In this document: positions 5,400-64,000 of the stretch, piece by piece
How positions within the stretch are numbered: position 1 is the stretch's first letter
How the letters are laid out: each line of letters begins with the position of its first letter
Source: Norana najaformis
Taxonomy: Eukaryota > Annelida > Clitellata > Crassiclitellata > Hormogastridae
Assembly (NCBI GenBank): GCA_964023275.1
Contig: OZ029928.1
Coordinates: 2,316,462 to 2,380,461, forward strand
Reading direction: 5' to 3'
DNA length: 64,000 nt
The notes under the pieces: generated by a model
Seen by the model: the letters and a program-made list of their open reading frames with translations, nothing else
What the model was told of the DNA's origin: nothing
Database searches by the model: none
Made by a program: the position numbers and the translations under genes

Positions 5400-8080
5400 G
5401 CTTTGGTGTATGCAGCAAAAAAAAGTACAATTACACTGGCCAAGAGAAAATTTTTTTTTCTTGTTGCCTTCGGTTTTAGACCTGTTCTTGGGGTAATTTT
5501 GGGCGCTGATTCAGAAAATGTCATTGGATTGAGTGCATCAGGTCTAGTTTCTGAGATATCGTCGATTTTGTGAAGAAAACCCAGTCCACTCTTTAAACGA
5601 TGTCTTTGGCAAAACTAAAATGTCATAATAAGCTTTATTTATGGCTAATTATAATTCTTGCTGATTCATATAATGCCTACATCCTTATAATGTAAAATCA
5701 GCATATCTTGCCGCGTGCTGAGATATTGCTGATTCAACGAAATAACTATTCCGTAGCCTACAGCTTACTCAGCACTAAATTCATGGCCTCATTTAGAATT
5801 TATTTGTGCTTATACAGCGTTTCATGGTTTCGAACTATGTAAATAGATTATGCTGAAGTCAGCATTTATAGCCTATATAAACCGCCTCCTGAAAGCTAGA
5901 GCAGCCGCAGTCGTCTTAGGGCATATGAAGAGTTGGTCGCAAGAACAATCTGTGAATGTGAGCATTAAATAACTACATATTCTTACTATTTTTTAGGTTA
6001 GTCATTTAATTCCTCAGATGCGAACATCCTTAAGGTTATGGCTACTTCCAGACGGAGCTGCATTAACCATCCAGACATATTCTGCTACATTTGTGGGGAA
6101 TACACACTAAAAGCAAACAGGAAACCGATTTCTGAGTTTGTAAAAAGAGCATATGTAGGTTATTTTGGTGTCAAACTTGGAGATCAAGATAAGCAATGGG
6201 CTCCTCATACAGTATGCAAAACTTGTATTGAACAATTGCGCCACTGGACAATTGGAAAGAGAAGCTGCCTGAAATTTGGTGTACCGATGGTTTGGAGGGA
6301 ACAGATAAACCACTTCGACGACTGTTACTTTTGTATGGTTAATATCATAGGCATCAATCGAAATAATCGTCACAAGTTGTCTTACCCTGATATACCTTCA
6401 GCCAGGAGACCTGTTCCGCATTCGGATATTGTACCAGTTCCACCTTTTCGCGAACTACCTCAGCTCTCAGACGATGAGACTTGCATGTCCAATATCGGAC
6501 AAGATGACGAAAGTGAAGAAAGTGGGGGCAGTGACAGTGATTTCCAATCAACTTCACACAGTGAACGTTTTGACCAAAAAGAGTTGAGTGATCTGATCAG
6601 GGACTTAAATCTTTCCAAAGAGTCCTCTGAATTGCTTGCGTCCAGACTAAAGGAAAAGAATGCACTTCAGCCTGGAACGAAAATTACAATTTATAGAAAC
6701 AGAGAAAAGGATTTGCTGCCATTCTTTACCGAAGACAACAACCTAGTATTCTGTAATGACATCAGCAACTTATTGAAGAAAATTGGTCTGTCGGATTACA
6801 GCCCAGATGAGTGGCGTCTTTTTATCGACAGTTCAAAACGTAGTCTGAAATGTGTGCTTTTAAATAACGGCAACAAATTTGGTTCTATTCCAATCGGTCA
6901 CTCCACCAGGATGAAAGTAGAGTACAATGCCATCTCTTTAGTACTGGAAAAGATAAAATACAAAGAACATCAATGGGTAATTTGTGTAGACTTGAAGATG
7001 GTAAATTTCCTCCTTGGTCAACAAAGTGGCTACACAAAGTATCCCTGCTTTTTGTGTCTTTGAGACAGTAGAGCCAAGCATGAACATTGGACAAGAAAAG
7101 ATTGGCCTTCGAGGAAAGACATGGTGGTTGGAGCTCAAAATGTAATCAAGGAATCTTTGGTGGCACGAGATAGGATCATACTGCCACCACTACATATAAA
7201 GCTAGGCCTGATGAAACAATTTGTCAGGGCTTTGAATAAAGAAGGTTCATGCTTCGAATACATAGTACACAAGTTACCAGGAATTACAATGGAAAAATTG
7301 AAGGCTGGAATCTTCGATGGTCCACAGATCAGGCAACTTATGAATGACCCACTTTTCATACCATCAATGAATGAAATCGAATCTTGTGCCTGGTCTTCCT
7401 TTGTTCTTGTAAGTAAAAATTTTCTTGGCAACAAGAAGGCAGACAATTATGCACAACTAGTAGAGGATATGCTTCTTCATTTCAACAAGCTTGGCTGCAA
7501 CATGAGCATTAAAGTCCATTATCTCCACAGTCACTTAGATCGCTTTCCAGAGAATCTTGGTGACTTCAGCGAAGAGCAAGGTGAAAGATTTCACCAAGAC
7601 ATCAAAACAATGGAAAATCGATATCAAGGAAGATGGGATGCACACACGATGGCAGACTATTGCTGGAATATTACGCGCGATTGTTCCGGCAGATGCCACA
7701 CTCGGAAATCGTACAAAAGGAGCTTCTTCGGTGTCGAATGACTTGAAATTTTTATAACAAACTTGTTCTGTTTGGTATCATATAAGTACAGTTTCAGGTA
7801 CTACCATTTTCTTTTAAGTATTTGTATTATTATGTTTATTTAGTGTATCACATAATAAATTGAGCACTACATAATTATTGCTATAGCCTTGTGTTTTATG
7901 GGCGAGCAGAGGCAAGGACTGGTATATGGCATAATGTTCTATATCTCGAAAACTAGACCTGCTGGGAGAAAACTGGTGCCTTTTCTGGAATCAGCAGGTC
8001 AAATATACCCAGAAACAGTTCTAACATTTGAGGCAACAAATTATGTGTTGGCCAGTGTTATGGTTCCTCATTTGCATGAG
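5400..8080 (+). mobile_element. DNA transposon with long diverged terminal inverted repeats
   Basis: The stretch at about 5425-5575 matches the reverse complement of about 7925-8080. Shared blocks in order are acactggccaa, ttgttgcct, a gaactg/gacctg-tt-c-ggg segment, gctgatt(c)cagaaaa and caggtctagttt(c/t)gagatat. This gives inverted repeats of roughly 150 bp with indels. Between them lies one long coding frame (6038-7741). Inverted repeats around a single gene are the structure of a class II transposon. Superfamily is not assigned; exact outer ends and the target-site duplication are not resolved. Confidence 0.65.
6038..7741 (+). pseudogene. Transposon-encoded protein (transposase candidate), interrupted by one in-frame TGA
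   Basis: One frame of 568 codons from ATG 6038 to stop 7739-7741, broken only by TGA at 7061-7063. Upstream part, 341 residues: an N-terminal region rich in Cys/His pairs (F-C-Y-I-C-G near residue 15, V-C-K-T-C near 58, D-C-Y-F-C near 96), which looks like a zinc-binding module. Then come an acidic Ser-rich linker (about 150-180) and a conserved block with I-C-V-D-L-K followed by L-L-G-Q-Q-S-G-Y-T-K-Y-P-C-F-L-C. The downstream part begins D-S-R-A-K-H-E-H-W and includes P-P-L-H-I-K-L-G-L-M-K, C-N-M-S-I-K-V-H-Y-L-H-S-H-L-D and G-E-R-F-H-Q-D-I. I recognise this as a repeated, uncharacterised family common in invertebrate genomes. Relatives have Trp (TGG) just before D-S-R-A, so TGG to TGA is the probable single change. 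An RNase H-like transposase core is inference. Confidence 0.75.
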
Positions 8081-12565: not shown

Positions 12566-15500
12566 ATGCCAAATCTGTTCAACATGACCGATGGCAAGTA
12601 CACGACATCAGAAGTGCCCGTGGTGATCACCCAGGTATAAATAGATGAAACTGCTCGATTAATACTGATTAAGTAATTATTTCTTTACAGGAAACGCAGA
12701 TTCAGTTTGACGTGAAATAAAGAAAATGCTCTCAGAATCAGTCCATTTCTGGTGCTTGCAGATTGCCATTGCTACACATTGCTCTAGCATTCTGCCTCTC
12801 GTCACGCATATGTTAATACAGTGGGGCCGCTTGGGCCTTGCCCCAGCACCGGTGATCATCGCCAGACATCTCACCCTCACTGTGCAGCTGTTAGTCACAC
12901 AGTTAGTTGGCTGTCATGTGAACATCGACGACCCAACCAGCTAATGAAATTTAAGCAAGCTAGAAACATAAACGGGTAAAATATTTGCTAAGCAGAGGTA
13001 AGCTAATGGTGAAAATTCTCCCATAACTATGCTTTTCCGAACATGTATTATCCTTTTCTAGCATGCATTTATGCTTGAAAAATGCTTAACTAATTAATTA
13101 GTTTATCATAAGCAGAAGTCTTGCTCTGTAATTAGTTGTTTACCGAAGGACGTCAGAAACACCAGATAGGCAAATACTTCAGCTCCAAGACGATCCATCA
13201 CCATAGATCAGAATTTTGTGATTTTAGTCGAAAGTTGTTTGTCATACGACAGCTGCTTAATGCTACCAAAGGAACTTCCCAGAAATTAGGATAAATGTGT
13301 GCAAGCAGGACCTTACAATAATGGCTTCTCTCCCTGAAGGCCAATCTAAGAATCTAAATAGGAATGAAATGGTATAAATTATATCGACTAACCTCCGCCG
13401 TTAGTTCGAGGACAAGCTCAAAATAGAATACATAAATCTATTAGCGTTTAGGAAGATATTGCGAGGGCCTGCGAGTTGGAAAGGAAAGTTATGTTGAATA
13501 TATTTAACGTTTCTATCTTTTGAAGGGTCCTGTCTCAAAACAGCCTGCGCGCAAAAAGTACGTAATAATTGCTGTGAGCGGATGCATTGCTGCAGCAATC
13601 ATACTGACAGCCATTTTGGTTGGAATGTACCTTTTCACGGAGGCCCAAAAGGATATCATCAAGGCAAGATTATTGGAGTTCCGATTCTGAAGGATTATGA
13701 TAAGACGATATGCAATTGCGCTTTTTGAATTGTAAATTTAATTGCAATTACAGTTATGTTCAGTATGAATATTAGAGCTCCTTCCATTCTGATTCTTCTT
13801 CCACTCTAAAGCTCCTTCCAATCTAAACATGTAATAATAGATTGTATTAATAGTTTACTCTCAACATGAATTTTTTTTTAAACTTTTATAAGGAAATATA
13901 TAATTAAACCTTCAAGACTATTATAAAATATCTGATGTGTAGTTCATTCATCTCTTCGAGCGGAGTTCGAATCTTGATTCATAACATGAAGTGAATGATG
14001 CTTCGTCGAACCATGAATGTGACCTGTAAATGAGTGTATTTTAAGCAGCTGTTATTGCGTTTGATTGCACTTCGCCCTCAATATCGTTCAACATTCCTTT
14101 CACCTGGAATATGAATCTAAAATTCTTTGGTCTCTTCAACTGAAAATGCTGAACTGTTTGATTAATTTAAACATTGAGCCAAAGTTACTAATCACGTTCT
14201 CTGTTGTCTTGCAGGAAGTGATTATTTACAAATACAGAATAATTCCAATTCTGAAAATGTTTATATTTGTGCAGTTCTCTTACAATCGAGACGATACCAC
14301 CGAGGAGGATGTGACCAGTGACCCAAACTCCAACATCGTGCAATATCACGTCAACAGTCATGATTACGAGATGTGGGTTGTAAACGACTTCAATCGAGTG
14401 AGTTTCCGCAAAATTATTACTTTTTATTGTAACTTTATGAATATACATGTCTGTATTCATGTACAGTAGGCCTATATAAACATATATATATTTGTGTATA
14501 TATATAGGCATACACATTTACATGCATATATATATATATGAAGATACACTTTAAACGGCGGAATGCACGCAGGCATGCATATACACATATATACATAGAT
14601 GCATACATATATTCATATATGCATGTATAAATACATAAGTACACATTTAGGCCTATACTTATATATGTACGTGCACACATATATACAAACATACTTACAT
14701 ACTTGTTTACCCTACTTTATCTATCTACATATACACTTACTTACTTACTTACTTAACTTTACAATTGCTATTACGATTACAATAACAATCATGTTTACAG
14801 TTAGAGTTACTTTCTTGCTTACTTAATGATTCGAGTAGCATCTGTGATCATAAATTGTTTTGTACTAGTTGTCACAAATCATTCTAACGGCTTATTTATG
14901 TTCGTCTTTATTCCGCCTTTTCCTCTCCATACTCCCGCCCGTCAACAGCAGTTAGCCGAGGCAATATAACACTTAGTGGCCTTGGTGCACATAAATAAAT
15001 GTCACAGCAGTCTAAATATATGTGATGATGTGTAGGCCAACCGAAAAAATATTTTAGCCTTATTCCATGCATTTGGAACCTTCTACAATAACATGATTGC
15101 TGACAATGCTTTCGCAATTGAGGATGCAAATAACGATGAAAGATGTGCGGTATGGAGTAGTCGGATGATTTGCATCGGTATCTAGATTGAGGGTTTTCAA
15201 GTTAGTGTATTATTATATCCATCTTAGGATATTCAAGTGATGAAAATACATTCAACATCTGGTACGAGCTGCTACGTGGCTCCTCTTAACAGAACGACGG
15301 CCACTGATCCATCGAAAGTCAGTTCTCCGTCGGATCTTGATGCAACGGTACGTCCTGACACAAACACATTATCACGATTCACGATGCATTTCTAGTGAAA
15401 CTTCAGCTGCAAATGTTCTAATGACATTTTAATCTTAATTCGTCTCAACACTGTATTAGCTAGGCCTCTCTAATTCTATATTAAACCGTGCGCATAGCAA

Positions 15501-18500
15501 GTGGAAACGGTACATAACAGCTATGTTACAATTGCGGTTAATGCTCGATCAGTCTATGACAGCCGCATTGCAGGTTTTGTTTGTATACCAGCATCATTTC
15601 AAGCACTTCATTTCTTCGCTCAATGGGCTACTAGAAAAACAATTACTGTGCTTTCCGTCTCATAACATATGGGAAAGGAAACTGTGGTATATTACAACCA
15701 TCCACGTCATAATTATTGTCATAATATCAAAATGCTTAATTTCTTAACTCTTTATCCCGAATGTTGTAATTATCATTGTTGATGAAATTAAAAGACTTCT
15801 TTCATTTTGCATCTATTAATGCAATACAGTCTTTGCCACAAATCAAACTATTAATATATAGTTTTGCAGGCGTATCGGAAGTGATACTCTTTCAGCATCA
15901 ACTTATATCTTGATGCATTTCAAATAATAAATTATAATGCTGCTTGGTACCTGAAATGCACGTGTTTAGTTTTGATTGCAGAATAGTAACGGCTTAGCAA
16001 AACATCGGTTTTCATAAAATTCGCAAAGAAGTGGGTTCAGATGTATGATAGAAACACATAAACCATATATCATGTGTAATTAACACTTTGCTCCCCTATT
16101 TGACATATCCTTCTTTCGTATTTGTCAGCCTACATTGTTCGAGCCCATTTCATGGTGCAAACACAAAGTTTCCAACGTATGTGACAGAAAAGGCTATTTC
16201 CGGGGCGTACTTGAGCATTTTTTGGTAAAGCCTGACACTGGATTTAGCAAATGAGAAGCCCCGCCTCCTTCTCCGAGCCATTCCCGTCATTTCCTTTCCC
16301 ATACACTTTTAGCATCAAAATATAGGACCACGTCTTAATTTAGACCCAAAACTCAACGCCTTCCTACACGAAAAATCTGTTCCCTTTGCTCTTATGTGAT
16401 ACCGTCATTGCTTAAATGCGAATTCATGCAGAACATCCTCGTTTGTCCATTGTGGGTTGTCTTTTGTACCTGCTTTCGTTGCTTCTTTTGGCTGATGATA
16501 TTGAAATCAATCTTGGACCAGCTAGAATTTACATTAGGTCTGTTGGATGTTGGTCAACTAAATATCTGCTTTCTTTGAAGTAAAACTCCAGATCTAGGTA
16601 ATTTCCCTTATGAGCATTTCTTACATTTCCTTGATTTTTATAAGATCTGGCTTCAACTGAGTGATATATCAGCAAACATTTCTTATCTCGAGTTCCAACC
16701 TTTCATTTTTTAATCAGCGTTGGTGAAATGGCATAAGTTAGTATTTGTTATTGATGTAAACAAACAGGCATTACCTGTAGACATTTATCAGCCACCGTCC
16801 ACCTCTTGGGCTGACTTTTGAGTGAGTTTCAGGTACTGTTTGAATATCTGATTCAATACCTTTCCGAAATAATTCTTATGGGAGGCCTACTATAAAAAAT
16901 ACTTCCTAGACATAATCAATTTTCTGATATCTGCCTTGCTGCTCTTCTCTGGTTTAGTAATTTCCAGCGGAAATTGATACTGAGTGATTAGTTTGCCATA
17001 GACACCTTAACAGCTACGGTACATTCTTTTTCTTTCTTTTCTCTCGTCCGTCAGGCTATAGCCGACGATGAGGTCTGAACGAAATGCAACCTCGTTCTTT
17101 AAATTGTGGCTCATTTGTTCAGATTTCTAGATCCTGTAACCAGGTGGTGACCATTCCTCTCCTGGCAGGATAAGGAAGCCGGTGGGCCCTGGTAGGGCCT
17201 CCTACGCCCTAGGGTGTCCTTCCAGCACCCGCCTCCTGCGTTGGCCAGCCGTTTTCAGTTCCTAATGAACCTGTCCACCTCGCGTAACGCCCTAGGTGGT
17301 GCTTCGGCCTGAGCCTTCTCCACTGATGACATAGCCTCGCTAGGCGATCTCTTACTTGGCTGTTTACCCTTCCACCGCGTTGAGATGCAGGTAGGGCTTT
17401 GGAAGGGCTACGGTACATTGCAATGTCTTAATTACGATTTCAATATCTTTCAGAAACGGAATACAACTTATAGCTTGACTTACAGTTCCGCCAACACTCC
17501 AATCCCCGATACTTCGTTCCTTGGTAAGACGGCCAGAGAAACCTGCAACGGAATTTCAACTTATTGGGTATATCCAAGCTGCAAAGTCTCAGAAGGTTAG
17601 ACTATACATGGTTTACCTTTTTACCAAGTTATAAGTATGCCATACATCGTCGCAGTGCATGTATGCAGAAAATTTATTTCTTATCTCCTTCAAAGTTTAA
17701 GAGCTATTGCATTTAATTCAGTTAAATTTTATATGCGCTCAGTGCTTATCCTTCTTATAATAAATAAGCAATCGCTTGATCAACCGTCGATCACTTGAAT
17801 TCTGCGCCTCGTAACTATATATGTTGGGATTTCAGGCGTACCAACGATTGGTGAAAGATTTGGAGTTCATTGTCCAGTTCTGTAATTCTACCAGTTCTTG
17901 ATACTCTTTTAGATCTACTGTATACTTAGAACACGCTATTTAAATATTTTCTTATCCCGACTTGACCTAGTTTCCCCAAGTTCATGAATTTAAACTTTAA
18001 CAGAGGTTACATGACTTTGAACTGTGATTTTACTTGAAGCAACTATTGATTAACGCCTTGTGCATTATGATAGAACCCAGTGGAAGTCAGCAGCTTCCAT
18101 TAGATTATGCCTGATTAGATTCTTTAGTAGGCTAAAATTATTTGTCGCCGCATTGATTCCCAATGTCGCGACTTAGCATAAAATTATATCACTTCAATCA
18201 CCTTAACGTCTAATTTATTTATGCATATATGTATTAATGTATGTATGCATATACTATATATGTTTGTATGTGTGTACGTATGTATGCATGTAGGTATGTT
18301 TTTTATATGTGTATGTATGTATGTATGTGTGTGTGTGTATGGAGGGAGGTAGGGAGGTGTTTAGACACTTAACATAGCGCCTTTTGTACATCTTAAAAGC
18401 TGTGTACACTTGCTAGCCACGGTTTTTAAATTCGTTAAGAATAAAAACATATGCATGCAAATGATGTTCGGATATCTATTGCTTCCGGGCTCTGGCACAC

Positions 18501-19577
18501 ATAGAACCAATCCGGATTTGTATTTAACACGATGCTAAGCTTCTAGTCATGTTGCATTAATGGCCACAACCGAATGAAGTCCAACACAAACGGTTACGTT
18601 CACCAATTGGCACCATCGGTAGATGATGTATGTAGGTAGGTAGGTCCGGAAAAACTTGGTTTTGCAAGGCAGACAATGCACTATCAACCAGCCGATTGGT
18701 AATTGAACCTCTCCAATCATACTATGAGGCTCGGAACTGTCCAAAAGGACACCATTCTATCTTGATAGGTCGATCAATTCAAAATAGCGCATGGATATAG
18801 TGATAGGTAATAAAATACAGTCCAGAAACGATAAAAATCAACAAAAGCAGGCTTATGAAATATAAAATATTCCAAAATGCGGACTTGGACAAATAAGAAA
18901 ATCTAAATTCGAAAACTACCGAATAATTTCTTACGTGACGAGCTAATCAGTCCGAATGCACAAGAATCTTAAATTAAGTGACCGCCATCTTGGCCGCCGA
19001 CTTCTAATGAGTGGTCAATTATCTACAAAACTCTGGCTCTTTACATTGGTAGCAATAGGTTTAAAGGCCAATGTAAGAATCAGCAGTCTACAGAAGAAGG
19101 TAGAGAAACAGGTTTTGTGAAATTCCTGAGCACACTATTACAGTGTATAAATGAATGTTTACTATATAGAAATACCCGATACGATCACAATTTACTATTG
19201 TACTATTGTGACTCCTTTTCGCTATCATGCTGTCTGTTTTACGTTTGTGGTTCGAGTGCAATAATTTACAATAACTTGGAGAATCCGTGTTGAGATATTT
19301 AATTTGCAACGAAACAATAATGTGACTGTGACGTTTGCATTTCATCATAAGATTCACATCAAAGATTGATAGTCTGTGATTACAGGTACGCAGTGGGCTA
19401 AATTTTATGTTCAGCGATAATGCATCAGATGAGCGATTATGCTAGCTGACCTCTCTAAAACTGTATGCTTACTATGTTTAACCAGATTCGAGCGGAAGAA
19501 GATACAAACGAGGATGGTCTTTCTGTTTCACCGTCGGTTGGGGCTGGTTTAGTGTCGAAATTTGCTACGAGTCGTAA
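12566..19577 (+). CDS. BRICHOS-domain antimicrobial-type peptide precursor, gene A (6 exons)
   Basis: Exons: 12566-12634, 13526-13663, 14275-14397, 15228-15347, 17454-17595, 19486-19577; introns 1-4 are phase 0, intron 5 is phase 1. Predicted product is 227 residues: short polar N-terminus; transmembrane segment about 36-60 (V-I-I-A-V-S-G...M-Y-L-F), probably type II; linker; BRICHOS domain about 90-193 with the expected Asp (W-V-V-N-D-F-N-R, D107) and Cys (C-Y-V, C125; E-T-C-N-G, C181; further C193). Then come R-R-Y-K-R and a 21-residue C-terminal peptide. BRICHOS acts as an intramolecular chaperone in relatives; the tail would be released by a furin-like protease in the secretory pathway. 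The layout matches annelid arenicin/alvinellacin-type precursors. Every exon is supported by an equivalent in gene B. The intron 2 donor is GC (AAG|GCAAGA). Family assignment is strong; antimicrobial function is inference. Confidence 0.8.
14461..14705. repeat. (AT/ACAT)n alternating purine-pyrimidine tract in intron 3 of gene A
   Basis: About 240 bases of tatata, catata and acatac repeats. It produces low-complexity Tyr/Ile/His-rich open frames on both strands (14435-14692, 14599-14826) that are not genes. It ends just before the left edge of the large duplicated block, near a (ttac)n run at 14735-14755. Confidence 0.85.
17026..17419 (-). mobile_element. SINE-like retroposon in intron 4 of gene A, with 13-bp target-site duplication
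   Basis: Absent from the matching place in copy 2 (near 48280). Flanked by gctacggtacatt at 17013-17025 and again at 17407-17419; the single-copy site in copy 2 reads gctacggtacact. The left end is a CT-rich run, so on the minus strand the element ends in a gaaaagaaagaaaaag tail. It is GC-richer than its surroundings. A minus-strand frame (17209-17418) is open but has no motif I know. Retroposition after the duplication is the simplest reading. Confidence 0.8.
18216..18345. repeat. (GTAT)n/(GT)n microsatellite in intron 5
   Basis: Runs of gtatgtat with gtgtgt ending in a ggagggaggtagggagg purine tract. The paralogous run at 49135-49262 is shorter, so it has varied in length since duplication. 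Confidence 0.9.
19486..19577 (+). CDS. Gene A last exon: furin site and mature two-cysteine peptide
   Basis: Acceptor tttaaccag, phase 1, stop TAA at 19575-19577. It encodes D-S-S-G-R-R-Y-K-R and then 21 residues (19512-19574) starting G-W-S-F-C and ending I-C-Y-E-S. Key residues: Cys at mature positions 5 and 18 (C-x12-C, predicted disulfide), three Trp, three Phe, a central V-G-W-G-W-F turn-like segment, two Glu and no Lys or Arg. Size and the cysteine pair resemble beta-hairpin peptides such as arenicin, but the charge is about -2. The reading frame across Cys-x12-Cys is preserved in gene B despite a 6-base insertion there, which argues that this exon is really translated. Confidence 0.75.
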
Positions 19578-19687: not shown

Positions 19688-19925
19688 CTAAGCACTAGAT
19701 TCACATTTCTGTGTAACTTTGTGAGCACTGTAATTTTTGCAATAATAATATACATTGCTAAATGATTTATTGATGCAACAATTCAATTTTTAGCTTATAG
19801 TTTCCTAAACTATGGGTTTCTCGATATTTATTAAAACACTTTTACTTCGTAGCTTTGTTGCGGATGATGAATTGCCGAATGATTTATATCAAAACAGTGT
19901 ATTGGAAGGTATCATGTTAATTATT

Positions 19926-20567
19926 TTTCTTTTAGTTAAGTCTTGAGCATAGCTATGTCAGGTTATATAGCAATATATGCTGATCCATATTGCCTTGGTC
20001 TATTTTCGTAAGCAGATACTGAAACATGTTATATTCTTTACATCTTTTTGAAGTAAAAAACAGGCGGTATATGATTTTTTACTTGCGAAAACATTTAAGT
20101 CTTACTTAATATAACGGGGACATTTTTGGCTTCCATTAAAGTGGATCTGATATAAAAAAAAATAAAAAGTATGTTGACACACATTGTTTACTTGTTTTAT
20201 TGAGAATTTGACTTTTGAAACGTACTTTTGAATGGGTGTAACCAGGAATTTAGAATCAAGACGCTGGCCTGAACTCTTGATCAGTACTGGGAAGCTTGAC
20301 CCTTGACCTGCGGTTGAACATTTAAAAGAGACTGGAGATATCTAGAACTGCATCCATCTATTGTTATTGATGTCTGCAACAATCAATAAATAACAATGTC
20401 AAAATCTAACTTCTAAGTTTATCTAGCCTACTTTTTCACTGCTGGTTCTCTGCTTTCCTTTGTGGTCAGCCACAACGTAACGTCTCCTCCCATATCCCAG
20501 GTTAATTATTATCTTCTAACAATGTTGATCGTGTTAAAATTTTATTTAAATCTATGTTCTTGCGGCG
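19926..20567 (+). repeat. Single-copy progenitor of the 627-bp tandem array
   Basis: From ttcttttagttaagtcttgag to ctatgttctt, this is one diverged unit of the monomer that is tandemly repeated behind gene B from about 50605. After 20567 the sequence switches to unrelated DNA instead of a second monomer. It includes a possible poly(A) signal attaaa at 20135-20140, about 558 bases after the gene A stop codon. Confidence 0.9.
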
Positions 20568-28648: not shown

Positions 28649-29698
28649 TTAGTAACTCAATATTGGCTTCCCATTCCAATCCAATTTAGTAATATTTGCG
28701 GGTATGAGAACAAATTCATCATTCCATCTGCTTAGCAGCTGACAGTAATCTTCTCTGCCTTTTGAACCAACATGAAGACCCACTTCTCGACGATTAATGC
28801 AAAGACAAGAGGAAGTATCGGCATTGTAACTCTTAAGATTGTTGTATATCGTAAAGAGTTTTTCTTGATAGGCGAAATAAATAAACCATTGTTCCCACAT
28901 GGAATCAGCCGAACCAGAGCGTTCAAACCCTTTGTACCAATTTGTAGTGACACTTCCAGGCACATATGGATGGAAATCTTTGAGTAGAATGTGAGTATGA
29001 TACCAATCTTGAAAATCCTTCCATACAGATGGCTTAGGAGAAAACCCCCATGTTCCAATGCATTTGTACATAAACATCGTCTCATTCTGAGGTACTTTCA
29101 ACGGATTAAAGGAACCATCGTGCGATTTCTGTTCGTCACTAGTGAGAGTAGTTCCAGCAAAGTCGTTCCTCGCGTTGTAAATGCGGTGAACAGCCTTTAT
29201 CCATCGGTAGCTGTACTTTGAAATACTGATGTCATCTTCTAAAATCAGCGCCAATTCTTTAGATTCTGAGTCTCTGGATCTCCACGTATCTATCCACTGG
29301 CCATAGATTCCTGCGTGAGCATTCTGTATGTGAACTCGAGTTGGTCCGTGTCGCCACTTAAATGAACGCGCAGCTTCAACAGTTTCGTCGTGTATTCGAC
29401 CGTTCTTATCTCTGTCTATCCAGATTTCTAAAGCGCCTTGACTACCATCCAGTTCAATTTCATCGACAGATTTTAATAGTTTTAATAAGGACTGTGCTCT
29501 GTTGAACGTAATAATGATAATTCGAAAATCAACTTCTTCGAGATACACGCAAGGGGTTCCGGTAACACACTTTTGGTTGTCACCACTCGGCCTAATAGGT
29601 TGTTGGATTCGAAGTGATCTCAAGCGATTCAAATACAGTAGATATCCGCACACACTGCATATAATAAAAGCAAACAAAAACTTCTTTTGTTGGATCAT
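28649..29698 (-). CDS. Golgi type II glycosyltransferase-like protein (single coding exon)
   Basis: Intact frame of 349 residues. Residues about 7-24 (F-L-F-A-F-I-I-C-S-V-C-G-Y-L-L-Y-L) form one membrane segment after a short Lys-containing N-terminus, the signal-anchor layout of Golgi enzymes; a stem follows. The catalytic-like part begins F-R-I-I-I-I-T-F-N-R-A (about 58), the start of a GT-A fold. Next come L-E-I-W-I-D-R-D and A-L-I-L-E-D-D-I-S-I-S (about 150), which sits where the metal-binding D-x-D motif lies in GNT-I-like (GT13) enzymes. Two N-glycosylation sequons (N-E-T, N-I-T) and conserved Trp/Cys follow. Substrate is unknown. On the minus strand a possible acceptor (ccattgtag) about 50 bases upstream of the ATG suggests a 5'UTR intron. 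I am fairly sure of the enzyme class, not of the reaction. Confidence 0.75.
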   Translation of the reverse strand: MIQQKKFLFAFIICSVCGYLLYLNRLRSLRIQQPIRPSGDNQKCVTGTPCVYLEEVDFRIIIITFNRAQSLLKLLKSVDEIELDGSQGALEIWIDRDKNGRIHDETVEAARSFKWRHGPTRVHIQNAHAGIYGQWIDTWRSRDSESKELALILEDDISISKYSYRWIKAVHRIYNARNDFAGTTLTSDEQKSHDGSFNPLKVPQNETMFMYKCIGTWGFSPKPSVWKDFQDWYHTHILLKDFHPYVPGSVTTNWYKGFERSGSADSMWEQWFIYFAYQEKLFTIYNNLKSYNADTSSCLCINRREVGLHVGSKGREDYCQLLSRWNDEFVLIPANITKLDWNGKPILSY

Positions 29699-42589: not shown

Positions 42590-45500
42590 ATGCGACCAAA
42601 TATGTCAGAGGAAAAGCAGACAACAGATTCGCCGACTTTCGTCATTGCACCTACTGAGGTAAATAAACTAGTCTCTAGTGCAACAGTTAACATGCTCAAC
42701 TACGCTAACGTTAGGCCTACATAAACTTTGCAATTTGGCATATGGCGTTATAGAAACAATTAAATACCAAAACTGTTAGTGTTTCACCAGTACAATTTAT
42801 CAGTAGAAGTCTGTTAGATGCCTCAAGATGGGGTTTACAAATTATATGAATGAATGAAAATAAGAAGGTATGTTGCTATTTCAATGTTTTGTGTTGCAAT
42901 TGGGTTTTCAAAGGCGCTTCCTTCGGGTGATCCTCCAAAATGGCGTCCCTACAAGAAGTATGCGGTCATTGCAGTGAGCACCATATTGGTGGCAGTCGTC
43001 ATTCTTACCGCAATCCTGGCGGGAATGTATCTGTTCACTGAAGCGCAGAAGGAAATGATAAAAGTAAGCGAATTGGAAGTTGCTAGATATTCAGAGACTT
43101 ACTGGGTTTCAGTCGTTTCTGTTGAAGAGGTTCTAATAAACTGTGCACTTACTTTAACGGTTTTAGAGAAAAATTTAAATATTGCATAGACCTGTAATGC
43201 TCCTAGTGTTTGTCGGGTGATGTGTTTTAGGGTTAGCTCTTTAAATAAAGGATATCTATTTTGTGTTGAAGATGTTTTAAACTGACTGCAGAAACAGTAA
43301 ATGTACACAGTTTTCTATAGCGACCGTTTTCCCTCAACCGTTCATGAATTCAATGAATTTATTGGGTGAAATCCTTCACTAACGCTGCCCGTTTGAATGG
43401 ACGCCACAATATTCAAGGTCTCCGTGCAAAGATCATGCTGGCCTGAGATTCAAATTTTGGAAATGAACCACAATCGGGTTGCGATCTGGCATCTTCAAGC
43501 ACAGAGGTGCCTTGACGTACGCATTTACTGATGTAGCTAACTAGGCAAGTGTATATAATAAATGAATAGGCTTACGTATTATAGCCTACTTCTAGGCCAA
43601 TCTGTTGCACATAATAAAACCTACATGTAAGTCAAATTATTTATTCATAAGAATTATGCGACATCTTATAATTTTACTAATAAAATAATTGTACTAGTAA
43701 AATTATTTGATCTTCCGACATTAACAAACTTTCCTATGCATCTGTTAGTTCTCATTCAATCGGGACCAGAACACCAAAGAAGAAGTGATTAGTGATCCAA
43801 ATGCAAATATTGTCCAGTACCATGTCAACGGCGAAGCATACGAATTGTGGGTTGTTGAAGACTTCAACCGGGTAAGTAGTTTTGATTCATAAGCAACTTA
43901 CTGACCGTTGGAGTACATCACACATTTTTTTATTGCCCTATGTGCCAATTTATGAGAGAATATTTATAAAAGCGTTCAACTGAAGCATCTTTAAATTTTA
44001 CAACCTTTATCATTATTTAAGGGATGCGGGATGATTTAATGGTCAGCGTTCTAGACTGTCAATCGCTCGCGGGTTCAAATCGGAGCCAGGATAGAAATTG
44101 TTTTTCCAGATTTCTGTTCCACTTGCGACACCTAGCCAAGTCAGCTATAATGCATACACTGACCGTACACTGTCGATGATAAGATAAGACGATCAGAGAG
44201 AGGACTGGCCACACACCCTCAAATACCGAGGCTACGACAAATAAAGTGGCTAACACGTCGTATCCATGGCTGCCTCTAGGAAATAACTTATGAGACTGTT
44301 TTTCCGCTCCTCTTCTTCTCTTTTTATAACTACTTTTAGTTCAGCAGCACTTGATAGCTCGGCAGAGGCAGGAGTGTTGATCATGAGTGGCCCCAGGGGC
44401 CCGGACCCTTGCAATATTGTGAGAAGTTGGCAGCCAAAATTTGAGCTGCAATAGAGCTAAAGACAGCTGCTGTGCAGGCTTACATTTTTAAAATTTAAAC
44501 AGTTACTTGGCTTTATAGTCTCAATTTCCTAAAAAAAAGTCCGATTGGTTTATATCGCTTCATTTGGTTACAGGCAAACGATACATAAAAAGTGATGATC
44601 AAAATTGCCAAACTTGGATAATTAATGCACCGTATAAATATTCCACGACATTATGACTCAGTGCCACTCCCTATGTTGTCGCCTAGCTGACCTATTCTAG
44701 GGTCTGGCTTTTGGTTTGCGCGCCTCAGATTCATATTTACCGACTTCTGGGCATGATGTAATTGTTTCTAATAATAAATAAACTAAAATAAAGGTAAGCG
44801 AATACCTTAAACTAGATCAGGCGCTTTGGACCTAAAACAATAGCAGGTGTAAATTTGATCGTTTAACGATATATGTTCTTCTTTATTTAGACAAGTTAGG
44901 GATAAAGGTTTGATCTCCAACGCGCACTATATTATCCTACAAGACAGAGAGGGAAGGGGAGATGGGAAGGGGGAGTAATGGGGAGATCGCGTTCGGATAG
45001 TGAGATGAGAGAGAAGGCTACTTTGACAGCGGTGACATAAGCTCAAATATATAATAATGGGTGAGTGGGCTTTAAGAGAGAGAAAGAGATACAGACTGGG
45101 TCAGTTCAACTCTAGTGTTGAAACTCATTAGGGTAATCTAATCTAAACTAATAGAAACACTTCTATAGCGCCGTTACCAAAATGCCCAAGACATCAGTCG
45201 AAGGTCGCTTCAAGTCAAAATCGCAGTCCAAAATCATAAACCATTCGAGAAGCTGGGTCAAACTCCGATAGGTCAGAGAAGCCAGAAGCCAGGCTACGAT
45301 GCATCTCAAGTGTAGACCTGAATGACATAAAAGAATTGGCAGAACGGGCAGAACGTGACAGTGAATTCCAAAGCTTTGGACCAGCTCCTGATAATGTCCG
45401 AGACCCCAACATGGTTCGGGTATGGGTCGTAGTAAGAGTCACAGTGTTTATTGATCGAATGCAATGTCTACTAGTGTTACGGTTAAGCATGGAACAGGGA

Positions 45501-48500
45501 TAGGTTGACTGATTTAAATGTAGTACTTTGTGAATTATAAGAAAGATTTTGAAATAAACTCTGCTCAATGAGGAGCCAGTGCAATAAATATAATATTATC
45601 TTAGAATGCCCACGTTTAAGGGACTTTGTTATGGCTCTGGCATGAGAGTTCTGAACAGGATTGGATATAGAGCTATCAAATGAAAGGAAGAGTTGGGCAT
45701 CATAAGCATACAGATGGCAGTTCAGAAAGATATTAGTAGTGAACCGAGTGAAGTGGCAAATACATGTAATGTAAACAGGAGTGGGCCCAATACAGAATGC
45801 CACAATTCTAGACAGTAGGCACTGAAGTGAGTTGGTTGATAGGGACTGACTAAGTATGAGTGTGCAGGTAAGATGCAAACCAACGGAGAGCAGGACCAGA
45901 AAGACCAAACCAGTATTCGAGGCGCTGAAAGATAATGATCAACATTTGCAAAAAAAAGGTCGAGGAGAATAAGAGCAGTTACTTTTCCTTGGTCCATAGA
46001 GTTGATTATGGGATTGTGAAAAGCAAGTAGTGCGGTTTCTGTGGAATGGTATTTTGCGGTAACGGCGCTATAGAAGTGTTTCTATTAGTTTAGATTAGAT
46101 TACCCTAATGAGTTTCAAAACTAGAGTTGAACTGACCCAGTCTGTCTATCTCTTACTTACTTACTTAACTTTACAATTGCAATTACGATTACAATAACAA
46201 TCATGTTTACAGTTAAACTTAGAGTTACTTCCTTGCTTACTTAATGATTCGAGTAGCGTCTGTGATCATAAATTGTTTTGTACTAGTTGTCACAAATCAT
46301 TCTAACAGCTTATTTATGTTCGTCTTTATTCCGCTTTTCCTCTCCCGCCCGTCAACAGCCTTATTCCATGCATTTGGAACCTTCTACAATAACATGATTG
46401 CTTTCGCAATTGATGATGCAAACAACGATGAAAGATGTGCGGTGTGGAGTCGTCGGATGATTTGCATCGGTATCTAGATTGAGGGTTTTCAAGTTAGTGT
46501 ATTGTTATATTCATCATAGGATATTCAAGTGATGAAAATACATTCAACATCTGGTACGAACTGCTACGTGGCTCCTCTTAACAGAACTACGGCCACTGAT
46601 CCATCGAAAATCAGTTCTCCGTCGGATCTAGATGCAACGGTACGTCCTGACACAAACATTATCAAGATTCACGATGCATTTCTAGTGAAACTTAAGCTGT
46701 AAATGTTCTAATGACATTTGAATCTTAATTCGTCTCAACACTGTATTAGCTAGGCCTCTTTAATTCTATATTAAACGGTGCGCATAGCAAGTGGAAACGG
46801 TATATAACAGCTCTATTACGATTGCAGTTAATGCTCGATCAGTTTATGAGAGCCGCATTGCAGGTTTTGTTTGTATTTCAGCATCATTTCAAGCACTTCA
46901 TTTCTTCGCTCATTGGGCTACTAGAAAAACAATTACTGTGCTTTCCGTCTCATAACATATGGGAAACTGTGGTATATTACAACCATCCACGCCATAATTA
47001 TTGTCATAATATCAAAATGCTTAAGTTCTTAACTCTTTATCCCGAATGTTGTAATTATCATTGTTGATGAAATTAAAAGACTTCTTTCATTTTGCATCTA
47101 TTAATGCAATACAGTCAAACTATTAATAAATAGTTTTGCAGGCGTATCGGAAGTGATACACTTTCAGCATCAACTTATATCTTGATGCATTTCAAATAAT
47201 AAAATATAATGCTGCTTGGTACCTGAAATGCACGTGTTTAGTTTTCATTGCAGAATAGTAACGGCTTTGCAAAACATCGGTTTTCATAAAATTCGCAAAG
47301 AAGTTGGTTCAGATGTATGATAGAAACACATAAACCATATATCATGTGTAATTAACACTTTGCTCCCCTATTTGACATATCCTTCTTTCGTATTTGTCAG
47401 CCTACATTGTTCGAGCCCATTTCATGGTCCAACGTATGTAACAGAAAAGGCTATTTCCGGGGCGTACTTGAGCATTTTTTTTGGTAAAGCCTGACACGGG
47501 ATTTAGCAAATGAGAAGCCCCGCCTCCTTCTCCGAGCCATTCCCGCCATTTCCTTTCCCATACACTCTTAGCATCAAAATATAGGACCACGTCTTAATTT
47601 AGACCCAAGACTCAATGCCTTCCTACACGAAAAATCTGTTCTCTTTGCTCTTATGTGATACCGTCATTGCTTAAATGCGAATTCAAGCAGAACATTTTCG
47701 ATTGTCCATTGTGGGTTGTCTTTTGAACCTGCTTCCGTTGCTTATTTTGGCTGATGATATTGAAATCAATCTTGGACCAGCTAGAATTTACACTAGGTCT
47801 GTTGGATGTTGGTCAACTAAATATCTGCTTTCTTTGATGTAAAGCTCCAGCTCTAGACAATTTCCCTTATGAGCATTTCTTACATTTCCTTGATTTTTAT
47901 AAGATCTGGCTTCAACCGAGTGATATATCAGCAAACATTTCTTATCTCGAGTTCCAACCTTTCATTTTTTAATGAGCGTTGGTGAAATGGCATAAGTTAG
48001 CATTTGTTATTGATGTAAACAAACAGGCATTACCTGTAGACATTTATCACCCACCGTCCACCTCTTGGACTGACTTTTGAGTGAGTTTCAGGTACTGCTT
48101 GAATATCTGATTCAATACCGTTCCGAAATAATTCTTATGGGAGGCCTACTATAAAAAAAAGACTTCCTAGACATAATCAATTTTCTGTTATCTGCCTTGC
48201 TGCTCTTCTCTGGTTTAGTAATTTCCAGCGGTAATTGATACTGAGTAATTAGTTTGCCATAAACACCTATATAGCTACGGTACACTGCAATGTATTCATT
48301 ATGAATTCAATTTCCTTCAGAAACGGAATACAACTTATAGCTTGACTTACAGTTCCGCCAACACTCCAATCCCCGATACCTCGTTCCTTGGTAAGACGGC
48401 CAGAGAAACATGCAAGGGAATTTCAACTTATTGGGTATATCCAAGCTGCAAAGTCTCAGAAGGTTAGACTATACATGGTTTACCTGCAGCCAAGTTATAA

Positions 48501-50513
48501 GTATGCCATACATCGTCGCAGTGCATGTACGTAGAAAATTTATTTCTTATCTGCTTTAAAGTTTAAGATCCGTTCCATTTAATTCAGTTAAATTTTATAT
48601 GCGCTCAGTGCTTATCCTTCTTATAATAAATAAGCAATCGCTTGATCAACCGTCGATCACTTGAATTCTGCGCCTCGTAACTATATATGTTGGGATTTCA
48701 GGCGTACCAACGATTGGTAAAGATTTGGAGTTCATTGTCCAGTTCTATAATTCTATCAGTTCTTGACTCTCTTTCAGATCTACTGTACACTTAGAACACG
48801 CTATTTAAATATTTTCTTATCCCGACTTGACTTAGTTTTCCCAAGTTCATGAATTTAAACTTTAACAGAGGTTACATGACTTTGAACTGTGATTTCACTT
48901 GAAGCAACTATTGATTAACGCTTTGTGCATTATGATAGAACCCAGTGGAAGTCAGCAGCTTCCATTAGATTACGCCTGTTTAGAACCCAGTAGAAGTCAC
49001 CAGCTTCCATTAGATTATGCCTGATTAGATTCTTTAGTAGGGTAAAATTATTTGTCGCCGCATTGCTTCCCAATGTCGCGACTTAGCATAAAATTATATC
49101 TCTTCAACCACCTTAACGTCTAATTTATTTGTGCATATATGTATTAATGTATGTATGCGTATACTATATATGTTTGTATGTGTGTACGTATGTATGCATG
49201 CAGGTATGTTTTTTATATGTGTATGTATGTATGTATGTGTGTATGGAGGGAGGTAGGGAGGTGTTTAGACGCTTAACATAGCGCCTTTTGTACATCTTAA
49301 AAGCTGTGTACACTTGCTAGCCACGGTTTTTAAGTTCGTTAAGAATAAAAACATATACATGCAAATGATGTTCGGATATCTATTGCTTCCGGGCTCTGGC
49401 ACACATAGAACCAATCCGGATTTGTATTTAACACGATGCTAAGTTTCTAGTCATGTTGCATTAATGGCCACAACCGAATGAAGTCCAACACAAACGGTTA
49501 CGTTCACCAACTGGAACCATCGGTAGATGATGTATGTAGGTCCGGAAATACTTGGTTTTGCAAGGCAGACAATGCACTAGCAACCAGCCGATTGGTAATT
49601 GAACCTCTCCAATCATACTATGAGGCTCGGAACTGTCCAAAAGGACACCAGTCTATCTTGATAGGTCGATCAATTCAAAATAGCGCATGGATATAGTGAT
49701 AGGTAATAAAATACAGTCCAGAAACGATAAAAATCATCAAATGCAGACTTATGAAATATAAGATATTCCAAAATGCAGACTTGGACAAATAAGAAAATCT
49801 AAATTCAAAAACTGCCGAATAATTTCTTACGTGACGAGCTGATCAATCCGAATGCACAAGAATCTTAAGTGACGGCCATCTTGGCCGCCGACTTCTAATG
49901 AGTGGTCAATTATCTACAAAACTCTGGCTCTTTACATTGGTAGCAATAGGTTTAAAGCCCAATGTCAGAATCAGCAGTCTACAGAAGAAGGTAGAGAAAC
50001 AGGTTTCGTGAAATTCCTGAGAACACTATTACAGTGTATAAATGAATGTTTACTATATAGAAATACCCGATACGATCACAATTTACTATTGTACTATTGT
50101 GACTCCTTTTCGCTATCATACTGCCTGTTTTACGTTTGTGGTTCGAATGCAATAATTTACAATAACTTGGAGAGTCCGTGTTGAGATATTTAATTTGCAA
50201 CGAAACAATAATGTGACTGTGACGTTTGCATTTCACCATAAGATTCACATCAAACGTTGATAGTCTGTGATTACAGGTACGCAGTGGGCTAAATTTTATG
50301 TTCAGCGATAATGCATCAGATGAGCGATTATCCTAGCTGACCTCTCTAAATCTGTATGCTTGCTATGTTTAACCAGATTCGAGCGGAAAAAGATACAAAC
50401 GAGGATGGTCATTGTCTATCTGTTTCACCGTCGGTTGGGGCTGGTTTAGTGTCGAAATCTGCTACGAGCCACCTTTAATTTCCCTATTAAAAAAGCTTTT
50501 CGATAATGAGTAA
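42590..50513 (+). CDS. BRICHOS-domain antimicrobial-type peptide precursor, gene B (6 exons)
   Basis: Exons: 42590-42658, 42914-43063, 43749-43871, 46520-46639, 48321-48462, 50377-50513, same phases as gene A. Exons 1, 3, 4 and 5 have exactly the same lengths as in A; exon 2 is four codons longer. Product 246 residues: transmembrane segment about 40-64; BRICHOS about 94-197 with W-V-V-E-D-F-N-R (D111), C-Y-V (C129), E-T-C-K-G (C185) and P-S-C (C197); K-R-Y-K-R; then 36 C-terminal residues. Exons 1-3 differ from A at many residues, yet keep length, phase and BRICHOS signature, which is what selection on protein leaves. Exons 4-5 differ at only three residues in total (S/N, V/I, N/K). Intron 3 has been enlarged by a SINE and a LINE. 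Probably the same role as gene A with a different effector peptide. Confidence 0.8.
44024..44290 (+). mobile_element. tRNA-derived SINE, copy 2, in intron 3 of gene B
   Basis: Same family as 1498-1740. The tRNA-like head is better preserved: gggatgatttaatggtcagcg as A-box region and gcgggttcaaatc as an almost perfect B box. The shared body block is agctataatgcatacactgaccgtacactgt. Lies within the enlarged intron 3 of gene B and is absent from gene A. Confidence 0.75.
45087..46153 (-). mobile_element. LINE fragment enclosed by a ~90-bp inverted repeat
   Basis: Left arm 45087-45179 (agagatacagactgggtcag ... cttctatagcgccgttacc) is matched by the reverse complement at 46056-46153 (ggtaacggcgctatagaag ... 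ctgacccagtctgt). Between them on the minus strand is a CR1-like LINE: M-D-Q-G-K-V-T-A-L-I-L-L-D-L and an H-S-V-L-G-P-L-L-F-T-L-H-V motif (RT A/B region, 45722-45997), decayed middle, then L-S-G-A-G-P-K-L-W-N-S-L-S-R-S-A-R and S-F-R-S-T-L-E-M-H (45215-45568). The left arm is the element's own 3' end; the right arm is an extra inverted copy of it. It abuts the left edge of the segmental duplication. Confidence 0.75.
49135..49262. repeat. (GTAT)n microsatellite, paralogue of the one at 18216
   Basis: Same position in intron 5 of gene B; shorter gt run before the ggagggaggtagggagg tract. Confidence 0.9.
50377..50513 (+). CDS. Gene B last exon: furin site and mature peptide with extended tail
   Basis: Acceptor tttaaccag, phase 1, stop TAA at 50511-50513. 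Encodes D-S-S-G-K-R-Y-K-R, then 36 residues from 50403. The start G-W-S-L-S-I-C carries two extra residues relative to gene A (6-base insertion at about 50412). The C-x12-C core (mature positions 7 and 20) is identical to gene A. After C-Y-E the sequence is unrelated: P-P-L-I-S-L-L-K-K-L-F-D-N-E, a possible amphipathic helix. Net charge about -2. Both this tail and the new stop come from a replaced 3' segment. Confidence 0.75.
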
Positions 50514-50604
50514 ACCACTTTTACTTCGTAGCTTTGTTGCGGATGATGAATTGCCGAATGATTTATAACAAAACAGTGTATTGGAAGGTATCATGTTAAT
50601 TATT

Positions 50605-62600: not shown

Positions 62601-64000
62601 TCTAACTTCTAAGTTTATCTAGCCTACCTTTTCACTGCTGGTTCTCTGCTTTCCTTTGTAGTCAGCCACAACGTAAAGTCTCCTCCCATATCCCAGGTTA
62701 ATTGCTATCTTCTAACAATGTTGGCCGTGTTAAAATTATATTTAAATCTATGTTCCTTCTCTTTTAGTTAAGTCTTGAGCATAGCTATGTCAGTTTATAT
62801 AGCAATACGTGTAGATCCATATTGCCTTGCTCTATTTTCGCAAGCAGGTACTGAAACATGTTATATTCTTTGCATCTTTTGGAAGTAAGAAACAGGCGGT
62901 ATATGACTTTTTACTTGCGAAAACATTTATGTGTTACTTAATATAACGGGGACATTTTGGGCTTCCGTTAAAGTGGATCTGATATAAAAAAGTAATGTTA
63001 ACACACATCGTTTACTTGTTTTATTGAGAATTTGACTTTTGAAAAGTACTTTGGAATGGGTTGTAACCAGGGGGTTTAGAATCAAGGCCCTGGCCTAAAT
63101 TCTTGATCAATACTGAGAAGCTTGACCCTTGACCTGCGGTTGAACATTTAAAAGAGGACTGGGAGATATCTAGAACTGCATTCATCTATTGTTATTGATG
63201 TCTGCAACAATCAATAAATAACAATGTCAAAATCTAACTTCTAAGTTTTATCTAGCCTACCTTTTCACTGCTGGTTCTCTGCTTTCCTTTGTAGTCAGCC
63301 ACAACGTAAAGGTCCTCCTCCCATATCCCAGGTTAATTGCTATCTTCTAACAATGTTGGCCGTGTTAAAATTATATTTAAATCTATGTTCTTTCTCTTTT
63401 TAGTTAAGTCTTGAGCGTTGCTATGTCAGTTTATATAGCAATACGTGTAGATCCATATTGCCTTGCTCTATTTTAGCAAGCAGGTACTGAAACATGTTTA
63501 TATTCTTTGCACCTTTTGGAAGTAAGAAACAGGCGGTATATGACTTTTTACTTGCGAAAACATTTATGTGTTACTTAATATAACGGGGACATTTTTGGCT
63601 TCCATTAAAGTGGATCTGATATAAAAAAGTATGTTAACACACATCGTTTACTTTGTTTTATTGAGAATTTGACTTTTGAAACGTACTTTGAATGGGTGTA
63701 ACCAGGAGTTTAGAGTCAAGGCCCTGGCCTGAATTCTTGATCAATACTGGGAAAGCTTGACCCTTGACCTTCCATTTAAAAGAGACTGGAGATATCTAGA
63801 ACTGCATTCATCTATTGTTATTGATGACTGCAACAATCAATAAATAACAATGTCAAAATCTAACTTCTAAGTTTATCTAGCCTACCTTTTCACTGCTGGT
63901 TCTCTGCTTTCCTTTGTAGTCAGCCACAACGTAAAGTCTCCTCCCATATCCCAGGTTAATTACTATCTTCTAACAATGTTGGCCGTGTTAAAATTATTTA
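50605..64000 (+). repeat. Tandem array of a ~627-bp monomer (about 22 units, continues past window)
   Basis: Using gtcttgagc as anchor, monomers begin at 50619, 51246, 51875, 52504, 53131, 53685, 54313, 54867, 55495, 56124, 56743, 57297, 57922, 58540, 59168, 59787, 60413, 60969, 61597, 62220, 62772 and 63409. Periods fall into classes of about 625-629, about 619 and about 552-556 bp. The short class lacks about 73 bases between two ttactt words. The 619 class has ccttccatttaaaag in place of cctgcggttgaacatttaaaag. Monomer-to-monomer joins are ctatgttcttt(t/c)tcttttag. Each unit carries an aataaa in caatcaataaataac. Small open frames inside (e.g. 51935-52153, 55555-55773, 57522-57728, 61197-61403) are repeats of the same non-coding sequence. 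No coding function is supported. Confidence 0.95.
50813..50818 (+). terminator. Candidate poly(A) signal of gene B
   Basis: aataaa in ccaataaagtgg, 300 bases after the gene B stop codon, inside the first monomer of the array; the equivalent in gene A is attaaa at 20135. If used, the satellite monomer is itself the 3'UTR end of the gene. Confidence 0.4.

Follow-up and report, generated by a model that had tools for sequence, protein, structure and literature searches.

Structure of Gene A

The window analysed here, a stretch of 64,000 nucleotides from the annelid Norana najaformis (assembly GCA_964023275.1, contig OZ029928.1, positions 2,316,462 to 2,380,461), contains two genes, called A and B in the following, that are predicted to encode precursors in which a BRICHOS domain is followed by a short C-terminal peptide. 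Gene A is modelled with six exons and a spliced product of 221 residues (Table 1; coordinates are positions in the window, plus strand). Exon 1 presumably encodes the cytoplasmic N-terminus, while exon 2 encodes a basic stretch and a hydrophobic segment, YVIIAVSGCIAAAIILTAILVGMYLF, judged by eye to be a membrane anchor. With this anchor the gene displays the order of parts known from annelid BRICHOS precursors, that is membrane anchor, linker, BRICHOS, and C-terminal peptide. The Pfam BRICHOS family (PF04089) matches residues 95-182 of the product with an E-value of 1.4e-11 and 44.9 bits (cut-off 25), covering model positions 4-91 of 91, and it is found above the cut-off in all four paralogs tested (E 5.3e-9 to 8.1e-12). 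When the whole genome was searched with the Pfam BRICHOS profile no match was obtained, and the same was the case for 14 control genomes; the genomic null result arises because the gene is matched exon by exon. PDB sequence searches gave no BRICHOS relative, the best match being a dockerin protein (E 0.47).

Exon 5 ends at the donor GAAG/GTTAGA at 17595/17596, and exon 6 begins behind the acceptor TATGTTTAACCAG/ATTCGAGC (AACCAG/ATTCG) at 19485/19486. The junction is in phase 1 and joins G and AT to an Asp codon, giving DSSGRRYKR and then GWSFCFTVGWGWFSVEICYES. Without splicing the frame of exon 5 would stop at a TAG following GAA GGT. The predicted mature peptide has cysteines at positions 5 and 18, contains neither Lys nor Arg, and is followed by TAA at 19575-19577. 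Sequence and conservation both place it in a last exon of its own behind a dibasic, furin-like site, as in preproalvinellacin. A PDB sequence search with the peptide gave no match. An earlier sequence-only reading had proposed that a phase-1 acceptor after the BRICHOS exon opens a frame for RRYKR, 21 residues with C-x12-C and three Trp, and a stop, and the exon reads exactly so; its description of a BRICHOS precursor that carries a short peptide with a Cys pair after a dibasic site is supported by the sequence, the Pfam match, and the paralogs.

An exon scan (acceptor-like AG, early RxKR or RxRR, 12-45 residues with at least two Cys, stop) gave one match in the 5 kb that follow exon 5 of gene A, and matches in 20 of 2000 order-1 random 5-kb sequences. 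Over the whole window there were three matches on the plus strand (19486, the gene B exon at 50377, and a low-complexity match at 37036) and one on the minus strand (35020). By itself the random-sequence test gives modest support for exon 6. The exon is accepted because its conservation in paralogs is decisive, and at the level of sequence it can be regarded as confirmed that exon 6 is a real phase-1 last exon.

Paralogs Sharing the C-x12-C Peptide

Further copies were extracted from the same genome as numbered loci (L numbers); gene C is L021, and gene D is found in the overlapping loci L022 and L023. At the protein level, exon 6 of gene B is 90% and that of gene C 80% identical to exon 6 of gene A, and the splice site, RxKR, C-x12-C, and the stop are kept in both. 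Gene B has two extra residues in this exon and a longer C-terminus. Behind this exon it lacks about 220 bp found after the gene A stop, so that the reading frame continues through part of the 3' flank, which supplies a C-terminal tail (50466-50513).

Five further A-type copies are found on contig C11. They were discovered via a weak genome match located some 1.85 kb downstream of an exon 5 on C11, and a second search, using one relative, gave seven matches, five with an intact exon start. The Cys pair expected of a disulfide hairpin, C-x12-C, is kept in all eight A-type copies with an intact start (A, B, C, L074, L015, L078, L081, and L082). The net charge is -2 for A and B, +1 for C, and 0 to +7 for the C11 copies (Table 1). 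One C-x12-C scaffold bears peptides from anionic to arenicin-like cationic, and gene A is a non-cationic member of this subfamily, with relatives ranging from -2 to +7.

Some related sequences are incomplete or interrupted. L079 and L080, on the minus strand of C11, are orphan A-type exon-6 pieces without the cleavage-site part and differ from each other at 12 of 381 bases. An in-frame stop interrupts the exon 5 that lies closest to L078. The first and fourth exons of gene D are similar to those of gene A (exon 4 with 1 of 120 bases changed), and its exon 3 is interrupted by an in-frame stop (L022:1219-1341); the exon-1-like stretch of gene D lies at the expected place, with the ATG outside locus L022.

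Table 1. Exons of genes A and B, peptide features of gene A, and A-type peptides on contig C11.
Feature	Position	Strand	Remarks
Gene A exon 1	13321..13371	+	MASLPEGQSKNLNRNEM; open reading frame with donor M/GTATAA; 87.5% identity to a stretch of gene D (L022:2-49)
Gene A exon 2	13526..13663	+	AG acceptor, GC donor AAG/GCAAGA; comparable exon in paralogs
Gene A exon 3	14275..14397	+	Linker and start of BRICHOS (WVVNDFNR)
Gene A exon 4	15228..15347	+	Middle of BRICHOS, with Cys
Gene A exon 5	17454..17595	+	End of BRICHOS; exits in phase 1
Gene A exon 6	19486..19577	+	SSGRRYKR, mature peptide, TAA stop
RRYKR, furin/proprotein-convertase-like cleavage site	19497..19511	+	From sequence; R-x-K-R kept in 8 A-type copies
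Predicted mature 21-mer GWSFCFTVGWGWFSVEICYES	19512..19574	+	C-x12-C, 3 Trp, net charge -2
Gene B exon 1, candidate	42590..42658	+	MRPNMSEEK...; comparable sequence ahead of exon 2 in L026, L027, L031-L036
Gene B exon 2, conserved part	42953..43063	+	Start not fixed; paralog comparison
Gene B exon 3	43749..43871	+	Paralog comparison
Gene B exon 4	46520..46639	+	Paralog comparison
Gene B exon 5	48321..48462	+	Paralog comparison
Gene B exon 6	50377..50513	+	SSGKRYKR, then GWSLSICFTVGWGWFSVEICYE, plus C-terminal tail from 3' flank
L074 (C11), A-type peptide WWRICLEFEFSWISGSVCVKWG			Behind R-x-K-R; net charge 0
L015 (C11), A-type peptide AACAKFKWFIFRGKICIKWRF			Behind R-x-K-R; net charge +6
L078 (C11), A-type peptide ATCFEIQWFIFNGKICINWWWWW			Behind R-x-K-R; net charge 0
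L081 (C11), A-type peptide WFRVCIRFRWSIFSGSVCAEWR			Behind R-x-K-R; net charge +3
L082 (C11), A-type peptide WWWPRRARICRKFKWFIFSGSVCVKWG			Behind R-x-K-R; net charge +7

A Genome-Wide Family

The genome to which the window belongs (608 Mb, 17 contigs) contains at least 120 matches to a 43-residue exon-5 query at E ≤ 0.001; each of the 124 first-look candidates was scored, and the figure is a lower bound. The matches are distributed with 44 on C12, 23 on C7, 19 on C11, 14 on C3, eight on C16, and 12 on six other contigs, and six of them display an in-frame stop. What is counted here is exons, and the corresponding genes are putative. All 21 distinct exon-5 copies that were read end in phase 1. 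The sequence-only reading had seen a single gene; gene A stands as described, and it turns out to be one of a large family whose last exon is hypervariable.

The C12-type exon-6 start, AGATCCAGYCGRYTCATCGCRAAGAMAGAAACG, allowing up to three mismatches, is found in 42 copies genome-wide, and a reversed-pattern control gave none. For 38 of the 44 C12 exon-5 copies it lies at most 4 kb downstream on the same strand; in the remaining six no exon-6 signature was seen over that distance, and of 39 C12 exon-6 starts one is without a listed exon 5. A Tyr-rich C3 exon-6 pattern gave five matches, compared with 14 C3 exon-5 copies. The first exon-6 filter was applied to genes A and B and to 19 loci of about 10 kb (L021, L022, and L024-L040; L023 overlaps L022), and it found the exon in both genes and in 16 of the loci. 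Another 26 short stretches gave 26 more exon-6 peptides, while the C3 and C11 copies were read separately. Exon 6 was not found in the loci of gene D (L022/L023), L025, L069, L071, and L072, and L070 gave a long exon-6 candidate only. In L038, a C12 copy, exon 6 at 5218 has an in-frame stop inside the mature peptide.

The Peptide Repertoire

Of the 54 exon-6 peptides tabulated, 52 are distinct; the set takes in L073, L067, L068, L075, and L076, and leaves out L038, L077, L070, L079, and L080. The net charge is zero or negative in 35 of them and reaches +3 or more in nine. The number of cysteines is even in 53, including two peptides without Cys. In the C12 type the pro-part (P)(A)DSSRRQKR is almost constant. 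The peptides themselves include a four-Cys example, L026 GWCIRVCYFICYQRCW, and Tyr/Cys-rich chains such as L032, L054, and the C3 set (e.g., GYYYRCYYYYYYCYGYYYGYYRYYLCYRYVCYWYYI), as well as a Cys-free linear candidate seen once, L073 LSIRIGLGWRKWRDLLEISVDVSKR, which is cationic and single-copy. The C3 last exons L067, L068, L075, L076, and L077 encode mostly Tyr and few Cys behind RQER or RQKR. BRICHOS antimicrobial peptides are characterized by being cationic; gene A, at -2, lacks this property, as do the 35 family peptides at or below zero, and gene A is for this reason not filed as an antimicrobial peptide.

Divergence of the Last Exon

When copies are compared pairwise, the mature part stands out. 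Among pairs with flanks at most 5% divergent (overlapping pairs with non-identical mature parts) it is more divergent than the flanks in 18 of 18, with mean divergences of 0.193 for the mature part, 0.030 upstream, and 0.032 downstream. Among pairs with up to 30% flank divergence this is the case in 611 of 814. The identical-mature pairs L052/L053 and L037/L040 were left out of this table, together with A, B, C, and L038. Twelve closest non-overlapping pairs, hand-picked after the table had been seen, as were the eight pairs mentioned below (L037/L044 being compared without its downstream flank), display mature divergence above that of the flanks in 11 cases (Wilcoxon p 4.9e-4), and Fisher p is below 0.05 in eight of the 12.

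The divergence is sharply placed in some copies. In L055, L056, and L058 the dense changes begin behind the cleavage site and cease at the stop. L036 and L037 differ at 2 of 129 positions in exon 5, 27 of 1024 in the intron, 0 of 32 in the pro-part, 20 of 48 in the mature part when aligned ungapped, and 13 of 397 in the 3' flank. None of 1756 windows is as divergent as the mature part in ungapped alignment; with gaps allowed the mature part differs at 10 of 44. The BRICHOS side of these two genes, exons 2-5, differs by 0.8-3.6%. For A and C the mature part differs at 10 of 63 positions against 88 of 1866 in the intron, with 7 of 2288 windows equally divergent.

L055/L056 and L034/L036 taken together display 18 replacement changes and no silent ones (p 0.011 for an excess of replacement over silent change). 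Over seven pairs the silent sites of the mature part diverge by 0.136 compared with 0.042 for the flanks (p 0.00096), and the excess of replacement has p 0.13. The ratio of replacement to silent divergence (pN/pS), pooled over 21 overlapping pairs, is 1.24. Since replacement and silent sites are raised alike and pN/pS is only 1.24, positive selection alone is not claimed as proven. Alignment error, gene conversion of the flanks, focal mutation, and selection are all possible causes of the mature divergence.

Proposed Function and Origin of the Repertoire

The explanation that we favor, and consider probable as a whole, is that the six-exon gene A encodes a membrane-anchored precursor belonging to a repertoire of defence effectors with a fast-diversifying last exon. 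The product would be a type II membrane pro-peptide with a short N-terminus, an anchor, a linker, BRICHOS, RRYKR, and the Cys-pair peptide. BRICHOS, which would lie outside the membrane, may act as an intramolecular chaperone keeping a hydrophobic, aromatic-rich peptide, probably a β-hairpin, soluble in the secretory pathway, and a furin-like protease would then release the peptide outside the cell. This mechanism is proposed by analogy with preproalvinellacin, HfBRI, and the spoon-worm precursors. Most likely the germline encodes, in this family, a set of effectors secreted for defence, whose anchor, BRICHOS, and pro-part are conserved while the last exon diversifies fast; a role in defence is suggested by the kinship and by this diversification.

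A number of observations weigh against this explanation. A score trained on 60 acceptors of family exons 3-5, which themselves score from -1.5 to 17.9, gives poor values for the exon-6 sites of A, B, and C (-8.4, -11.2, and -8.9); the score was set aside because it was trained on the T-rich exon-3-to-5 sites of one family, and it still counts. The mature divergence is not seen everywhere. L062/L063 is the one of the 12 closest pairs without a mature excess, A and B show no clear excess (4 of 63 compared with 62 of 1867, a divergence reached or exceeded in 365 of 2087 windows), and for L036/L034 the excess is mild (5 of 48 compared with 37 of 1023; 43 of 1738 windows). L037 and L040 have identical mature parts (0 of 48), yet their exons 2-5 differ by 1.6-4.1%. 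When eight pairs are pooled, the eighth being heavily gapped, replacement divergence (0.211) is close to silent divergence (0.191), the noncoding flank diverging by 0.040, with p 0.40 for an excess of replacement. Finally, the peptide of gene A is anionic, unlike tested BRICHOS antimicrobial peptides, and its putative role in defence is drawn from analogy and diversification.

It is possible, though rather unlikely, that the family peptides, that of gene A among them, are antimicrobial peptides of the classical kind that lyse membranes, as arenicin is. The precursor layout is identical, the C11 relatives L015 and L082 are strongly cationic on the C-x12-C scaffold, and other cationic peptides are found in L027 and L059 (both +4) and in L073. 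Hairpin antimicrobial peptides are drawn to bacterial membranes by their cationic charge (PMC13001179). Against this reading, 35 of the 54 family peptides are at or below zero and only nine reach +3, and the gene A peptide is devoid of Lys and Arg. The sequence-only reading compared gene A with arenicin, alvinellacin, capitellacin, and nicomicin precursors; the layout holds, the cationic trait of tested members does not, and an antimicrobial function of the gene A peptide is at most putative.

About as doubtful is the idea that the flanks and BRICHOS exons have been homogenised by gene conversion among tandem copies while old mature sequences persisted. Mosaic genes are indeed present, A and B differing by 29% in exons 2-3 and by 2-6% in exons 4-6, with homologous blocks at 15056-17023 and 17407-19571 that are 93-94% identical. 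The identical mature parts of L037 and L040 and the raised silent divergence of the mature part in seven pairs are also in line with conversion, and recombination between paralogs is known for preproalvinellacin (PMC5431198). Conversion agrees less well with L055/L056/L058, where the divergence is bounded by cleavage site and stop, and with the exclusively replacement changes in L055/L056 and L034/L036.

A more far-reaching version of the favored explanation, put forward tentatively and held to be somewhat improbable, is that the genome has a repertoire of around 100 or more chaperone-fused precursors in which a focal process rewrites only the 40-110 or so bases from cleavage site to stop and which yields non-lytic peptides. 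The process might be targeted hypermutation or replacement of last-exon cassettes, in addition to selection, and the mostly neutral or anionic, aromatic, Cys-paired products would then act in another way than by classical cationic membrane lysis.

Less likely again is that the peptides are surface or secretion material (mucus, tube, adhesive), predator deterrents, or signals rather than immune effectors, the Tyr/Cys-rich members cross-linking or assembling once freed from BRICHOS. By hand count the L067, L068, L075, and L076 peptides are more than half Tyr, and Cys and Tyr make up 22 and 17% of the residues in 43 distinct peptides (gene B being cut with three extra residues); a protective role of BRICHOS for aggregation-prone clients has also been suggested (PMC10745061). 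A single pro-part joined to dozens of unrelated sequences would nevertheless seem to suit an effector in conflict better. That transcripts stop at the TAG after exon 5 or take another last exon, the exon at 19486 being unused or decaying, is very improbable, for although the poor acceptor scores and the decayed relatives (the stops in L038, exon 3 of gene D, and exon 5 near L078, and the orphans L079 and L080) would fit, the splice site, frame, cleavage site, Cys pair, and stop are kept in A, B, C, and the five C11 copies, and exon 6 is found near 38 of the 44 C12 exon-5 copies.

Other Features of the Window and the Genome

A satellite of monomers of about 632 bp extends from behind gene B to the end of the window (50600-64000). 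The monomers are 90-96% similar to a single monomer found behind gene A (19921-20561), and several have an internal deletion. The long open reading frames at 28649-29698 (minus strand), 6038-7063 (plus), and 7121-7741 (plus) matched no Pfam family above the cut-off, and one match to zf-AD was below the threshold. The erythrocruorin-linker family PF16915, which we take to be annelid-specific, has 29 matches in the genome (best 8.1e-32) and none in the 14 control genomes, in keeping with an annelid origin; matches to the erythrocruorin-linker C-terminal family are clustered on contig C5 at 34.39-36.88 Mb.

Comparison with Known Systems

In human proteins BRICHOS has attracted interest as a chaperone acting against amyloid, and a few worm antibiotics have been studied in which it forms the pro-domain. 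The present genome offers dozens of natural client peptides, among them Tyr-rich, cationic, and anionic ones, for closely similar chaperone domains, and with so many clients on similar chaperones client specificity becomes directly testable. In view of the focal divergence one may also ask whether the last exon is diversified by a special process of mutation or conversion. A conserved pro-part followed by a fast-evolving Cys-rich mature part is well known from conotoxin-type precursors; here the precursor is a different one, with a BRICHOS chaperone.

Preproalvinellacin of Alvinella pompejana and A. caudata is a BRICHOS precursor with five introns and the antimicrobial peptide in the last exon, and it is encoded by a recombining multigene family of at least six genes in which the peptide is invariant in A. 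pompejana while BRICHOS is diversifying (PMC5431198). Gene A agrees with it in being a BRICHOS precursor with five introns, the peptide in the last exon, and a multigene family. The direction of change is the opposite: where BRICHOS evolves fast and the peptide is fixed in preproalvinellacin, the family described here, with its 120 or more exon-5 matches, has a conserved BRICHOS side and a hypervariable peptide. In Heteromastus filiformis 13 HfBRI transcripts have been described; the peptides of this one species fall into nine structural families, their precursors are membrane-anchored and secreted and have a dibasic site, and two of the peptides are not markedly cationic (PMC10745061). The membrane-anchored BRICHOS precursor, the dibasic site, and the diversity of peptides within one species are shared with the present family; HfBRI is described from transcripts, while gene arrays, exon structure, and divergence tests are added here. 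Arenicin-1 and -2 have one disulfide (PMC13001179, PMC9410094), and the spoon-worm precursors are membrane-anchored (PMC9410094). The β-hairpins arenicin, abarenicin, and UuBRI-21 resemble the gene A peptide in having about 21 residues behind BRICHOS, whereas those known peptides are cationic (arenicin-2 has a charge of +6) and the gene A peptide, at -2, has C-x12-C and no match among PDB sequences.

In the open-licence PMC literature no report was found of a family this large in which the last exon is hypervariable and most of the peptides read are non-cationic. The type of precursor is already known, and the two H. filiformis peptides that are not markedly cationic are a precedent; it is for the scale, the charge, and the focal divergence that no earlier description was found in that literature.
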